A stretch of DNA of 64,000 bases from Mesorhizobium sp. M4B.F.Ca.ET.058.02.1.1 (GTDB taxonomy: Bacteria; Pseudomonadota; Alphaproteobacteria; Rhizobiales; Rhizobiaceae). Positions within the stretch are counted from its first letter, which is position 1; the number at the start of each line of letters is the position of its first letter. Of this stretch, positions 3,951 to 43,413 are shown one piece after another. Under the pieces are notes generated by a model, which saw only the letters and a list, made by a program, of their open reading frames with translations, made no database searches and was not told the DNA's origin. The DNA is taken from positions 5,270,001 through 5,334,000 of the forward strand of contig NZ_CP034450.1 in assembly GCF_003952505.1 (NCBI RefSeq). The letters are read 5' to 3'. The position numbers were made by a program, and so were the translations under genes.

Positions 3951-4027
3951 TGGTGATCCCGACAGGAATCGAACCTGTGACCTACAGATTAGGAATCTGC
4001 CGCTCTATCCTACTGAGCTACGGGACC
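3951..4027 (-). tRNA. tRNA-Arg (anticodon CCU)
   Basis: The reverse strand folds into a full cloverleaf. The acceptor stem GGTCCCG pairs with CGGGATC, followed by discriminator A and an encoded CCA. The D-arm contains TAGCTCAG, the anticodon loop TTCCTAA gives CCT, and the T-arm contains GGTTCGATTCC. The length is 77 bases including CCA. It decodes the rare AGG arginine codon. Confidence 0.97.
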
Positions 4028-29192: not shown

Positions 29193-29203
29193 GCTCTACC
29201 TTT

Positions 29204-29250
29204 GAGCATGATCTTGTCCGAAGACCGGTTCCCACTTTTCGGGATCATGC
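29204..29250. repeat. intergenic palindromic element, family A
   Basis: GAGCATGATCTTGTCCGAAGACC followed by TTTTCGGGATCATGC forms an imperfect inverted repeat. The same core appears at 46426-46496, with weaker relatives at 41871-41919 and 53324-53378. Directly before it, ATCATGCTC (29189-29197) pairs with GAGCATGAT (29204-29212). Confidence 0.75.
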
Positions 29251-29251
29251 A

Positions 29252-29932
29252 TTAGGTGGCCAGCGCCGGCTGGCTCCAGCGGGCGGCGAGCAACCGGTAG
29301 GGGATCAGCGCCACTACGGCGATGATCAGCTTCACCGAGAGGTCGCCGAGCGCCCAGGACACCCAGCGCATGGTCTCGGCCGGCAGCACACCCAGCAGCG
29401 GCGCCGCCTCCAGTGCGAAGGCATCGTTCGGGCCGGCGAAGGCGAAAGCGGCGGAGAAGGCGACGCCGAAGAAGATGATGGTGTCGAACACGGAGCCGAC
29501 CAGCGTGCCGACGATCGGCGCGCGCCACCAGCTCTGCCGGCGCAGCCGGTTGAATACGGTGACGTCGAGCAGCTGCGCGGTGAGGAAGGCGGCGCCCGAG
29601 GCAGCGGCGATGCGCACCAGCCGGTCGGCGGCGGTCTCGAACTCGATCAGGCCGTGTCGGAACAGGAAGGGCGGGACGAGGATCGAGCAGATCACGGCCG
29701 TCATGAAGCCGACGAAGACGATCCTGCGCGCCACCGTCGGGCCATAGCGGCGGTTGGCGAGGTCGGTGACCAGGAAAGAGAAGGGGTAGGTGAAGGCGCC
29801 CCAGGTCAAGATGTCAGCCAGTGACAGGCCGCTGATCTCACCCTGCATCGGGAACTGCACAAGGATGTTGGAGGCCACGACGACGAGCGCCATGGCGGCC
29901 ACGAAGGGCAGGTAACGCGAGAAGGAATTCAT
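29252..29932 (-). CDS. yhhQ: queuosine precursor transporter (YhhQ/VUT family)
   Basis: A 226-residue integral membrane protein with about six hydrophobic spans. Family features are the N-terminal RYLPFVAAMALVVVASNILVQFP, and ADILTWGAFTYPFSFLVTDLANRRYG near residue 40. Members import queuosine precursors such as preQ1 or queuine for tRNA modification. The assignment is strongly supported by a preQ1-I riboswitch that overlaps the start codon at 29932. The AGGA Shine-Dalgarno sequence lies inside the aptamer. Confidence 0.94.
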   Translation of the reverse strand: MNSFSRYLPFVAAMALVVVASNILVQFPMQGEISGLSLADILTWGAFTYPFSFLVTDLANRRYGPTVARRIVFVGFMTAVICSILVPPFLFRHGLIEFETAADRLVRIAAASGAAFLTAQLLDVTVFNRLRRQSWWRAPIVGTLVGSVFDTIIFFGVAFSAAFAFAGPNDAFALEAAPLLGVLPAETMRWVSWALGDLSVKLIIAVVALIPYRLLAARWSQPALAT

Positions 29933-29958
29933 TTTTTTATCCTGGGTAATGGAACCAG
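29930..29958 (-). promoter_or_regulatory. preQ1-I riboswitch including the yhhQ start codon
   Basis: The minus-strand RNA reads CUGG UUC CAU UA C CCAG G AUAAAAAA AUG. CUGG pairs with CCAG (P1), the L1 loop starts UUC, an unpaired C precedes the 3' arm of P1, and the tail is AUAAAAAA. This matches the compact preQ1-I pattern of Bacillus subtilis position by position. P2, there UAG with CUA, is here CAU with AUG, a covariant pair. The AUG is the yhhQ start codon, and AGGA for ribosome binding overlaps P1, so ligand binding should block translation. Confidence 0.88.
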
Positions 29959-30072
29959 CGGGAGCGCCGCCCTGGCGTGGACGACGCTATCGTCTTGCTT
30001 CGAATATGAAATCGGACCGGAAATCGCTTCGTGCTCCCGGTCCGGCTAGCGGCGGTGATCCGCCGAAAGGCG

Positions 30073-30369
30073 TCAGGCTGCCGGCTGCTCGGCGAGCTTC
30101 TTGGCGATCTGCTTCTTCAACAGACGGGCGCGCTGCGACAGCTCCTTGGCGTCGGCCTTGGCCAGGAAGGCGTCAAGGCCGCCGCGGTGCTCGACCGAAC
30201 GCAGCGCGTTGGCCGAAATGCGCAGGCGCACATTCTGGTTCAACACTTCGGAGATCAGCGTCACATTGACCAGGTTCGGCAGGAAGCGGCGCTTGGTCTT
30301 GTTGTTGGCGTGGCTCACATTGTTGCCGGTCTGGACTGCCTTGGCAGTGAGCTCGCAGGTGCGGGACAT
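30073..30369 (-). CDS. rpmB: 50S ribosomal protein L28
   Basis: A 98-residue L28 protein of the large ribosomal subunit. The N-terminus [29 protein letters not shown] is diagnostic. The ATG at 30369 is chosen because GAAGGTTAG precedes it and because it gives the family start; the longer frame to 30399 adds a spurious leader. It lies in a conserved rhizobial neighbourhood with the phytase-like and DUF3108 genes. Confidence 0.98.
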
Positions 30370-30619
30370 GATACTAACCTTCAGTTCTCGGTCGGCCAAA
30401 CCATTCGACCCGCGCCAGGCGGCGCGCGGTCTCGGTCAGGCGGCCTTATGGAAAAAGTTGGCGTTCCATAGTGGCATTTCACCGGCGCGTCAAGCTCCGG
30501 CCAGCCGGCATCGTCAGGCCATATTCCATATAAAGGCCGGATTTCTCCCTATAAGCCAGCGACATAGGGACATGCCAGCCTGGAATTGCCCGTTTCCCGG
30601 CTGAAAATCGAGGACTGCC

Positions 30620-31426
30620 ATGCTTCGCCCCCCTGTGCTTCGTTTGCCATATGCGTTCGCTGGATTGCTCGCCGTGGCCCTGCCGACGGCAAGTTTCGCC
30701 GCCGCGGCGCCACAATCCTTCAAGGGTGAATACACGGTGTCGTTCCTCGGCCTTTCGGTGGCCAGGGCGACGTTCTCGAGCCGCTATGACGGCGATAATT
30801 ACGCGATCAACGGCACCGTCTCAGCGGCAGGCCTCGCCAAGCTGTTCGACGACACAAAGGGCACGGTTTCGTCCAAAGGCACGATTTCAGGCAAGCAGAT
30901 GCGGCCTGCGGCGTTCCGGGCCGACTACACGTCGGGCAAGAAGGCCTCGGTGGTCGACATCCGCTTCGCCAATGGCGCGGTAACCTCGACCGAGGTCATA
31001 CCGGCGCCGAAGAAGCGCGATCCCAAGAGCTGGGTGCCGCTTGGCGCGGGCGACCTGAAGTCGGTTCTCGATCCGATGGCGGCGACCGTCATCCACGCCG
31101 ACAGCCTCGATCAGGTCTGCGGGCGCACGGTCAAGTTCTACGACGGCGAGATGCGCGCCAACCTGACGCTGACCTATGCCTCGAAAGGGTCGATCTCGGT
31201 GCGGGGCTACAAGGGCGACACGGTGACCTGCCGGATGGGGTTCGAGCCGGTGGCGGGGTACCGCAAGGGCCGCAAGGCGCTGAATTTCCTCAAGGACCGG
31301 AGCCGCATGATGGTGACGTTTGCACCGCTCGGCCAAACCGGCGTATATGCGCCGATCCGCGCAACGGTCGGGACCCAGATCGGCCCGCTGACCATCAGCG
31401 CCGGACGGTTCGAAGCCATAAACTAG
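30620..31426 (+). CDS. secreted DUF3108 protein
   Basis: A 268-residue exported protein of the DUF3108 family. The signal peptide covers about residues 1-29. The mature part starts QSFKGEYTVSFLGLSVARATFSS, typical of the family's repeating beta strands, and contains CGRTVKFYDGEMRANL and VTCRMGFEPVAGYRKG with two possible disulfide cysteines. The function is unknown; the family may be outer-membrane or periplasmic. It is divergent from rpmB with a 250-bp intergenic region. Confidence 0.85.
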   Translation: MLRPPVLRLPYAFAGLLAVALPTASFAAAAPQSFKGEYTVSFLGLSVARATFSSRYDGDNYAINGTVSAAGLAKLFDDTKGTVSSKGTISGKQMRPAAFRADYTSGKKASVVDIRFANGAVTSTEVIPAPKKRDPKSWVPLGAGDLKSVLDPMAATVIHADSLDQVCGRTVKFYDGEMRANLTLTYASKGSISVRGYKGDTVTCRMGFEPVAGYRKGRKALNFLKDRSRMMVTFAPLGQTGVYAPIRATVGTQIGPLTISAGRFEAIN

Positions 31427-41870: not shown

Positions 41871-41919
41871 GCGCATGATCCTGACTCGGAAAGTCTGCAA
41901 CTTTCCGGGGTCATGCGCT
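41871..41919. repeat. intergenic palindromic element, family A-like
   Basis: GCGCATGATC at 41871-41880 pairs with the closing GGTCATGCGC (41909-41918), and the interior CGGAAAGT/ACTTTCCG is a second inverted repeat. It fills the metX-metW gap and overlaps the last metX codons. Confidence 0.65.
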
Positions 41920-43080
41920 CAGCCCCCTTGCCCGCGCGGCCGAGCCGATGAAGCCGTTGATGGCGGCGAACAGTTCCGGCTCATCGAGCAGGAAGGCGTC
42001 ATGGCCGCGATCGGTCTCGATCTCGACGAAGGAGACGGAGGCGCCGGCAGCGTTCAGCGCATGCACGATCGAACGGCTTTCCTCGGTCGGGAACAGCCAA
42101 TCGGAGGTGAAGGAGACCAGGCAGAAGCGCGTCTTGGTGCCGGCGAAGGCATCGGCCAGGCGACCACCGTGATCGGCGACGAGGTCGAAATAGTCCATCG
42201 CGCGGGTCAAATAGAGGTAGGTGTTGGCGTCGAAGCGGTCGACGAAGGTCATGCCCTGATGGCGCAGGTAGCTTTCGATCTGGAAGTCGGCGTCGAAACC
42301 GAAGGTCAGCGCCTCGCGATCCTGCAGGTTGCGGCCGAACTTGCGGTGCAGCGCCGCCTCCGAAAGGTAGGTGATATGGGCGGCCATGCGCGCCACCGCC
42401 AGCCCCTTCTCCGGACGCTTGCCGTATTCGAAATACTTGCCGCCATGCCATTCCGGATCGGCCATGACGGCTTGCCGGCCCACTTCGTGGAAGGCGATGT
42501 TCTGCGAGGAATGACGTGCCCCGGTGGCGATCGGCAGCGCCGAGAAGACGCGCTCGGGATAGCTCGCCGCCCATTCCAGCACCTGCATGCCGCCCATCGA
42601 GCCGCCAAGCACGCAAAACAGCTTCTCGATGCCGAAATGGTCGACCAGCATCAGCTGCGCCCGCACCATGTCGCGGATGGTGATGACCGGCAGGTCGAGG
42701 CCGTAGGGCTTGCCGGTGGCCGGATTGGTCGAAGCCGGGCCGGTCGAGCCGAGGCAGCCGCCCAGCACGTTGGAGCAGATGACGAAGAAGCGGTTGGTGT
42801 CGATGATCTTGCCGGGACCGATCAACACCTGCCACCAGCCCGGCTTGCCGGTCACCGGATTGGTGCTGGCGACATGCTGGTCGCCAGTCAGCGCGTGGCA
42901 GACCAGGATGGCGTTGGAGCGGGCGTCGTTCAGCGTGCCATAGGTCTGGTAGGCGATCTGAAACGGCGACAGCAGCGCGCCGGCATCGAGCTTGAGCGGC
43001 TTGTCGGCGCCGAAGCGCAACACCGGGCTCGACGGATTGTCGGCCTCGTTGCTGGTTTTTGCGGCGCGCAGAACGGCCAT
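41911..43080 (-). CDS. metX: homoserine O-acetyltransferase
   Basis: A 389-residue alpha/beta-hydrolase-fold acyltransferase for the first committed step of methionine synthesis. The nucleophile is in [10 protein letters not shown], with the Asp in [11 protein letters not shown] and the His in [13 protein letters not shown]. The substrate segment [12 protein letters not shown] and [22 protein letters not shown] are conserved. A SAM-II riboswitch and a terminator lie 86-190 bases upstream, so expression should drop when S-adenosylmethionine is plentiful. Confidence 0.96.
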
Positions 43081-43165: not shown

Positions 43166-43198
43166 CAAAAAACCGGCAATGCCTTCGCAAAGCCGGTT
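43166..43198 (-). terminator. intrinsic terminator in the metX leader
   Basis: On the minus strand AACCGGC pairs with GCCGGTT across a 14-base loop and is followed by TTTTTTG. It lies just downstream of the SAM-II aptamer and upstream of metX, the expected position for riboswitch-controlled termination. Confidence 0.8.
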
Positions 43199-43210
43199 AC
43201 AGGATGCAAA

Positions 43211-43268
43211 CGGCCCTTTAGCGAATTGTTTAACGTGGCTGCAAGCCGACCGGCCAAATCACCACGGA
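43211..43268 (-). promoter_or_regulatory. SAM-II riboswitch upstream of metX
   Basis: The minus-strand RNA carries CCGUGGUGAUUUGGCC, then CGGCUUGCAGCCACGUUAAA and UCGCUAAAGGGCC. These are the conserved segments of the SAM-II (metA-type) aptamer, in order and spacing. CGUGG pairs with CCACG to form the first helix. SAM-II aptamers are known mainly from alphaproteobacteria in front of metX/metA and metC. The downstream gene is metX, as expected. Confidence 0.93.
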
Positions 43269-43413
43269 ACTGTCGCTGCTCTTCTAGGGCCAGCGCGGCT
43301 CGGCGTCAACGGTCGGGCTTTTCGCGCCCTTGCCGCCCTCTCGACATTCGCGGCCACGGCTTGTATTTCCGCTGCGGCCTTCGGTTGGAGGCATCCTCGA
43401 CGGACTTTTGGAC

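Follow-up and report, generated by a model that had tools for sequence, protein, structure and literature searches.

A candidate type III-related preQ1-I riboswitch that takes in the start codon of yhhQ in Mesorhizobium and related bacteria

Introduction

The closest described system to the element reported here is the type III preQ1-I riboswitch that lies upstream of yhhQ in Escherichia coli, for which a structure and a KD of 58 nM have been reported (PMC10622847; the structure is PDB 8FZA, as cited in PMC11625349). The leader of the E. coli gene reads UUGGG UUCCCUCAC CCCAA UGGUUAAUC AAAAAGG. In the published description of the structure, the Shine-Dalgarno sequence AAGG supplies A28, G29 and G30 as partners for U11, C10 and C9, A27 contacts preQ1, and C14 is the base that provides ligand specificity (PMC10622847). 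The ceiling of the pocket is described as being built by contacts of U7 and C8 with A27 and A28 and of A13 with U11, and the pocket is reported to prefer preQ1 over preQ0 (PMC10622847). According to the same source, the Shine-Dalgarno sequence is buried inside the aptamer, with no separate expression platform (PMC10622847).

Other known systems hide the ribosome binding site in different ways. Among type II preQ1-I riboswitches, the one from T. tengcongensis is described as burying only the first two bases of the Shine-Dalgarno sequence, and that from B. subtilis is a transcriptional switch (PMC11625349). For the add and TPP riboswitches, the AUG is reported to lie in a hairpin outside the aptamer (PMC10907184, PMC11751092), and in a candidate motif found on an mgtE-type gene it is placed at the base of a stem (PMC11109978). 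The yhhQ gene itself is said to be under the control of various preQ1 riboswitch classes in different bacteria; the passages on this point do not name the group analysed here (PMC5372724).

The DNA under study (hereafter, the window) is a 64,000-nt stretch of Mesorhizobium sp. M4B.F.Ca.ET.058.02.1.1, whose genome is a single contig of 6.46 Mb. An earlier note on this stretch had proposed that a preQ1-I riboswitch at 29930..29958 on the minus strand uses the start codon of yhhQ as one strand of its pseudoknot helix. Here, the element is compared with the E. coli type III riboswitch, its conservation and pairing are described, and the explanations that it admits are weighed.

Results

Position and parts of the element

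The minus strand of the window from 29958 to 29930 reads CUGG-UUCCAUUAC-CCAG-GAUAAAAAA-AUG, 29 nt in all, and this confirms the coordinates and base assignments of the earlier note to the base. All parts of the element lie on the minus strand. The two strands of P1 are CUGG (29955..29958) and CCAG (29942..29945). The hairpin loop between them, UUCCAUUAC (29946..29954), contains CAU (29949..29951), the putative 5′ strand of P2 and the counterpart of CCU in type III, and closes with a C (29946) that corresponds to the ligand specificity base C14 of the E. coli riboswitch (role from PMC10622847). The A-rich L3, GAUAAAAAA (29933..29941), ends in an A (29933) that is the counterpart of A27 (role likewise from PMC10622847), and AAAAAA directly precedes the AUG. 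This AUG (29930..29932) is both the start codon and the putative 3′ strand of P2, where type III has AGG. A Shine-Dalgarno-like AGGA (29940..29943) overlaps P1 by 2 nt and ends 7 nt before the AUG.

By sequence complementarity, these parts follow the order of the preQ1-I class, in which P1 encloses a loop carrying the 5′ strand of P2 and is followed by an A-rich L3 and the 3′ strand of P2. A G-C pair atop P1 and a C at the specificity position before the 3′ strand of P1, both features of this class, are present as well. Sequence, conservation and score together suggest that the whole element (29930..29958) is a preQ1-I-like, type III-related H-type pseudoknot with the start codon at its 3′ end. 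Minimum-energy folding, for which pseudoknots are out of reach, returned a weak hairpin in a shifted register (GGU/ACC), with a z of 0.20 for 41 nt. Just upstream of the element, a ten-pair hairpin is predicted at 29963-29988 (minus strand); it has counterparts at the same place in many Mesorhizobium leaders, and its sequence varies between species.

Gene and surroundings

The AUG of the element is the first codon of the yhhQ ORF (29252..29932, minus strand), which encodes a protein of 226 aa that matches NCBIfam model TIGR00697 with 107.6 bits against a cut-off of 50.95. The identification of this AUG as the start of a queuosine precursor transporter therefore stands. Directly upstream on the same strand, the ORF at 30073..30399 contains rpmB, the gene of ribosomal protein L28, and L28 precedes the element on the same strand in 132 of 132 element-bearing loci, some genomes being counted twice. 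A consensus scan of 29200-30700 found neither a sigma-70-like promoter nor an intrinsic terminator in the interval from rpmB to yhhQ. This absence fits translational control, and yhhQ may be co-transcribed with rpmB. The genome gives matches above cut-off to models for queC and queF, which means that the cell can make preQ1.

A reading of the element as a small upstream ORF was rejected, as nearly all of its bases are kept whatever their codon position. Elsewhere in the window, a SAM-II (SAM_alpha) riboswitch (43198-43275, minus strand; Rfam, 79.7 bits) lies upstream of the ORF at 41911-43080 (minus strand) and is ordinary for the group; we take this ORF to resemble homoserine O-acetyltransferase. 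A tRNA gene is found at 3954-4027 (minus strand; Rfam, 71.1 bits).

Comparison with the E. coli type III riboswitch

The UAG/CUA form of P2 found in B. subtilis had served the earlier note as its yardstick. The proper comparison is instead with type III, that is, with UUCCCUCAC and AAGG of E. coli yhhQ. When UUCCAUUAC and AAAAAAAUG of the window are placed in the E. coli register, C9, A10 and U11 stand opposite the G, U and A of the AUG. Only two loop positions differ from E. coli, the variable position 12 and position 10, where A stands in place of C. Opposite position 10, G29 has likewise given way to U, and the Shine-Dalgarno AAGG thus becomes the AAUG of the start codon with the register kept. 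Based on this same-register match and the paired change at 10 and 29, the element is called type III-related and not a UAG/CUA exchange. In the register comparison, the A before the AUG falls at the place of A27, and the A of the AUG falls at the place of A28 in the pocket ceiling. The mapped contact bases of the E. coli structure, G5-C15, U6, C14 and A27, are all present.

The likeness to E. coli type III extends further. Both RNAs have two G-C pairs atop P1, a loop of the form UUCC-N-U-N-AC, an A-rich L3, a three-pair P2 (putative in the window) in the same register and the pocket bases G5-C15, U6, C14 and A27, and both sit on yhhQ. In the other classes, the type III loop reads UUCCCU(C/A)AC. 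The type III features of UU after the 5′ strand of P1, AC before its 3′ strand, four to five conserved adenines before the 3′ strand of P2 and association with yhhQ are all found in the window; across the family, the UU is kept in 89 of 147 leaders. The partner in P2, on the other hand, is AAUG of the start codon and not the Shine-Dalgarno AAGG, and the element is therefore filed as a type III-related variant rather than as a member of type III. Unlike in E. coli, the loop would pair with the start codon (CAU/AUG) in place of the Shine-Dalgarno sequence (CCU/AGG), P1 is CUGG/CCAG, and L3 is short and nearly fixed. The element also belongs to an alphaproteobacterial family, part of which has G at loop positions 7-8. 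The neighbours of yhhQ in E. coli are tusA and dcrB, not rpmB.

More distant comparisons set the element apart in other respects. With type II (T. tengcongensis and B. subtilis), it shares the H-type pseudoknot, the AC before the 3′ strand of P1 and the A-rich L3, but its loop sequence differs, and an AUG in P2 is not among the described features of type II. As in the TPP and add adenine riboswitches and the mgtE-type candidate motif, the ribosome binding site and the AUG are included, the AUG being inaccessible in one state or lying within a structure. In contrast to those cases, the AUG would here be a strand of the pseudoknot helix that belongs to the ligand pocket itself. The absence of a separate platform, which had been put forward as unusually compact, is not new, since type III is described in the same way (PMC10622847). 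What is new here is that the start codon occupies the place of the buried Shine-Dalgarno sequence of type III; the fold itself was already known.

Conservation within the family

A total of 152 leaders was sampled, 127 of them from the family of the window and 25, its own leader among them, from its genus. The family leaders were drawn from 188 family genomes with a transporter match, the weakest matches being mostly left out. The element is present with sharp edges in 147 of the 152 leaders, and the remaining five, all from family members (L164, L172, L191, L193 and L282), show no trace of it. Outside the genus of the window, 83 of 86 sampled genera carry the element. Both sampled genomes of one genus, g98, are without it. 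All 80 named loci, which are the best 80 of 569 relatives and come nearly all from Mesorhizobium with one Aminobacter and one Pseudaminobacter, likewise carry the element, and its AUG is in frame with the transporter match in every one of them.

The pattern used to recognize the element in leaders required CAT, CCAG, ATG, the A-run and a loop that begins with T and ends with C; CUGG, a T at -7 and the sharp edges were left free. The free 5′ strand of P1 is CUGG in all 147 element-bearing leaders and in 79 of the 80 named loci (again the best 80 of 569 relatives), the exception being one CCGG that breaks a P1 pair. The G atop P1, which the pattern did not require, and the two C's, which it did, are found in 147 of 147. 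An A-run of 6-8, counting the A of the AUG, is also universal in these leaders (at least 5 were required). Of the 29 positions between -26 and +2 in 112 family leaders of standard length, 23 reach an information content of 2.00 bits, in part as the pattern demanded; directly outside, the content is 0.02-0.63 bits, and it climbs again within the coding region from about +22. We conclude that the element is real and conserved, and that it very likely acts as an RNA regulator of the transporter.

CCAG is followed by G in 142 of the 147 leaders and by C in the other five, which have no AGG there; the reported overlap of a Shine-Dalgarno AGGA with P1 thus holds in the window and most leaders but not in these five, where the sequence is CCAGC. 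In the CCAGC leaders (L151, L152, L165, L168 and L170), a fifth P1 pair (G-C) is gained and the AGG of the putative Shine-Dalgarno sequence is lost. Loop bases 7-8 are UC in 89, GG in 47 and GC in 11 of the 147 leaders, with UG in none (variants include L139, L146, L151, L165 and L174), and position 13 is A in 132, C in nine and U in six. The element of the window retains UUC and A13. As U7, C8 and A13 are contact bases in E. coli, part of the family would have to build its ceiling differently: by this comparison, leaders with a variant base at 7-8 or 13 must use other ceiling contacts, and the type III label would fail there. The variants at positions 7-8 could represent a re-wired pocket ceiling.

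Distribution beyond the family

In wider searches, the AUG-type pattern matches 12 of 385 genomes of the class and 21 of 249 of the order. Apart from the window itself, the class search left 11 rows, and the order search gave 14 rows from outside the family; a P1 of 4 bp is found in none of these, and five transporter loci at the order level (L026-L030) are without the element. With different bases at positions 10 and 29, the pattern occurs in 37 of 398 genomes of the phylum (11 rows from family members and 28 others). Among the 19 of these 28 non-family rows that have loci, none combines a P1 of at least 4 bp with paired 10 and 29.

The Shine-Dalgarno form of the pattern is found in 30 of 299 genomes of the phylum. 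The comparison set used below consists of 27 of the 31 rows with this form and E. coli, 28 sequences in total; one row had no locus, and L234, L235 and L263, with no YhhQ relative following, were excluded because they probably match by chance. All 27 kept elements lie outside the class of the window and are followed by a YhhQ relative on the same strand, and we infer that their carriers are gamma and beta relatives. In two genomes of the family (L234 and L235, genus g46), GGGTTCCCTTACCC...AAAAGG stands in nearly the same context without a YhhQ relative, which is probably due to chance.

Evidence for pairing

Pairing was assessed in 18 distinct sequences of equal length, which comprise 15 of 35 family forms and 3 of the 28 other-class sequences. 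All seven pairs of P1 and P2 can form in each of the 18. Changes on both sides are seen in three pairs, two of P1 and the A-U versus C-G pair at 10-29 of P2. When the partners are slid by 1-3 columns, pairing falls to 25-51%. None of 500 shuffles reaches the observed percentage paired, number of both-side changed cells or covariation score. The number of pairs changed on both sides and the number of further pair types are reached in 25 and 157 of the 500 shuffles, respectively, so that two of the five measures are not unusual.

Within the family, the covariation in CAU/AUG and CUGG/CCAG that the earlier note had named as a check is not seen. Both helices are invariant in the 147 matched leaders, in part since the pattern required CAT, ATG and CCAG, and pairing is consequently not proved by covariation within the family. 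Judged from the sequences, covariation appears only as fixed both-side differences from the other classes, each perhaps a single event. A swap of the start codon with its partner to GUG/CAC or UUG/CAA, sought as loop CA(A/C/G) with a (C/G/T)TG start, occurs in 0 of 394 family genomes. The wider proposal of a preQ1-I-like pseudoknot with a P2 between CAU and the yhhQ start codon is supported by complementarity, conservation and score.

Descriptor and model searches

Rfam gave no preQ1 match in the window at the gathering threshold, nor in the 301-nt region 29800-30100 at E ≤10. As a control, the E. coli type III yhhQ leader (L138:7179-7211) was scanned with Rfam release 15, and even this validated RNA was missed at E ≤10; four further type III loci gave no Rfam preQ1 match at E ≤1. 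Rfam release 15 is therefore blind to type III at the settings used, and its failure to find the element is uninformative.

A descriptor based on type III (TTCC N T N AC, a gap of 3-20, AAAA N G), in which any base is allowed at position 10 and at its partner, gives 13 matches in the 6.46 Mb genome, against nine for a reversed control pattern. In 12 of the 13, P1 amounts to 0-2 bp; at yhhQ alone, a P1 of at least 4 bp is combined with paired 10-29. A score was also trained on the 28 other-class type III sequences, with positions 10 and 29 counted only as a pair; it was designed after the element had been seen, which favours the element. The element scores 33.7. No other place in the window exceeds 18.8, the top value among 16 pieces of this genome is 20.0, and both strands of 10 Mb of random sequence reach 30.1 at most. 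The training sequences themselves score 35.9-39.9. With a covariance model based on 24 of these training sequences, whose 3′ A-runs were misaligned, the element came out fifth of five weak matches in the window (7.7 bits, E 6.4), a poor result that counts against the proposed reading.

A looser feature of the locus is less distinctive. A 4-bp hairpin around CAT in the 45 nt before the first ATG is found for 10 of the 124 window ORFs of at least 150 aa, yhhQ included. Five A directly before the ATG occur only at yhhQ among the same 124 ORFs.

Discussion

Proposed mechanism

Taken together, the results point to a translational OFF riboswitch with the preQ1-I fold whose P2 is formed on the start codon, and which is derived from or sister to type III; we consider this reading probable. 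The fold, the ligand contacts and the OFF direction are carried over from the E. coli structure, and from this we infer ligand binding, burial of the AUG and repression. In the proposed mechanism, CUGG/CCAG would form P1, and preQ1 would sit above it, read by the loop C (29946) and the A at 29933. Bound preQ1 would lock the loop CAU onto the AUG as P2, burying the initiator codon in the pseudoknot, with the first A of the AUG in the ceiling of the ligand pocket and the AGGA sequestered at the base of P1. An ample supply of preQ1, whether made by the cell or imported, would thus keep the importer from being translated. When preQ1 is scarce, the weak hairpin would open, AGGA and AUG would be free and translation could start.

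A more specific form of this reading is that the initiator codon serves as the expression platform throughout the family, that its first A and the A before it build the pocket, and that the ribosome is in direct competition with preQ1 for this codon. We lean towards this form, with less assurance than towards the riboswitch as such. If it is true, regulation would need no Shine-Dalgarno sequence, and the AGG beside P1 has already been lost in five of 147 leaders. Uptake of the proposed ligand has a parallel in a rhizobial relative: queC and queF mutants of S. meliloti are reported to regain their HeLa-cell phenotype with 300 nM preQ1 supplied from outside, and this relative thus appears to take up preQ1 (PMC3568095).

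Alternative explanations

The alternative that survives best accepts a real aptamer that binds preQ1 but has repression arise from indirect occlusion or from the AGGA held in P1, with the CAU-AUG pairing weak or incidental. Type I preQ1-I riboswitches are described as repressing without appreciable burial of the Shine-Dalgarno sequence (PMC11625349), the AGG overlaps P1 in 142 of 147 leaders, and a P2 of three pairs, two of them A-U, is weak. However, CAU is retained in the leader though there is no coding reason for it, CCU/AGG has given way to CAU/AUG in exactly the same register, and the five leaders that have lost AGG still keep CAU and AUG, both of which the pattern required. Weighing these points, we regard this alternative as unlikely.

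A pseudoknot that buries the AUG in the proposed manner could also respond physiologically to preQ0, queuine or another 7-deazapurine. The COG1738 transporters are reported to group according to whether preQ0, preQ1 or queuine is salvaged (PMC5372724), and the variability of loop positions 7-8 within the family would suit a change of ligand. Against this, the window element keeps every mapped contact base of the pocket described as preferring preQ1 over preQ0 (PMC10622847), and with queC and queF present preQ1 can be made, and such a ligand thus seems to us very improbable.

Finally, the region downstream of rpmB might be no riboswitch at all but a conserved translation-initiation region or a protein site, for example the target of a ribosomal protein or RNA-binding protein, as the constant L28 neighbour, the invariance of P1 and P2 within the family, an A-run and AGG that could serve initiation alone and the commonness of CAT-centred hairpins upstream of ORFs would allow, but we give this little credence, as the match to type III spans the loop, P1, the A-run and the register of P2, E. 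coli has type III on the same gene between tusA and dcrB and not beside rpmB, and the five leaders without AGG argue against an initiation region.

Significance

The preferred reading, a riboswitch with P2 on the start codon, appears to be new to the literature. Among the matches listed in our search, judged by titles and the starts of abstracts and with few subscription papers, no published report was found of a preQ1 riboswitch in the family of the window or of a start codon in the P2 of one; single sequences may be contained in the type III classification (reference 9 of PMC10622847). From the main text of a preQ1 riboswitch review of 2024 (PMC11625349), the words start codon, AUG, Alphaproteobacteria and Rhizobi are absent, and the 2023 type III paper (PMC10622847) does not contain start codon or AUG.

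The 2024 review predicts riboswitches that control translation without a Shine-Dalgarno sequence and states that the absence of this sequence weakens bioinformatic searches (PMC11625349). The element comes close to such a case, in that one paired change in P2, from C-G to A-U, re-addresses the aptamer with its register unchanged. Queuosine is reported to matter for symbiosis in the rhizobial group (PMC3568095), and rhizobia and their relatives gain with this element a candidate preQ1 switch on a predicted importer of queuosine precursors.
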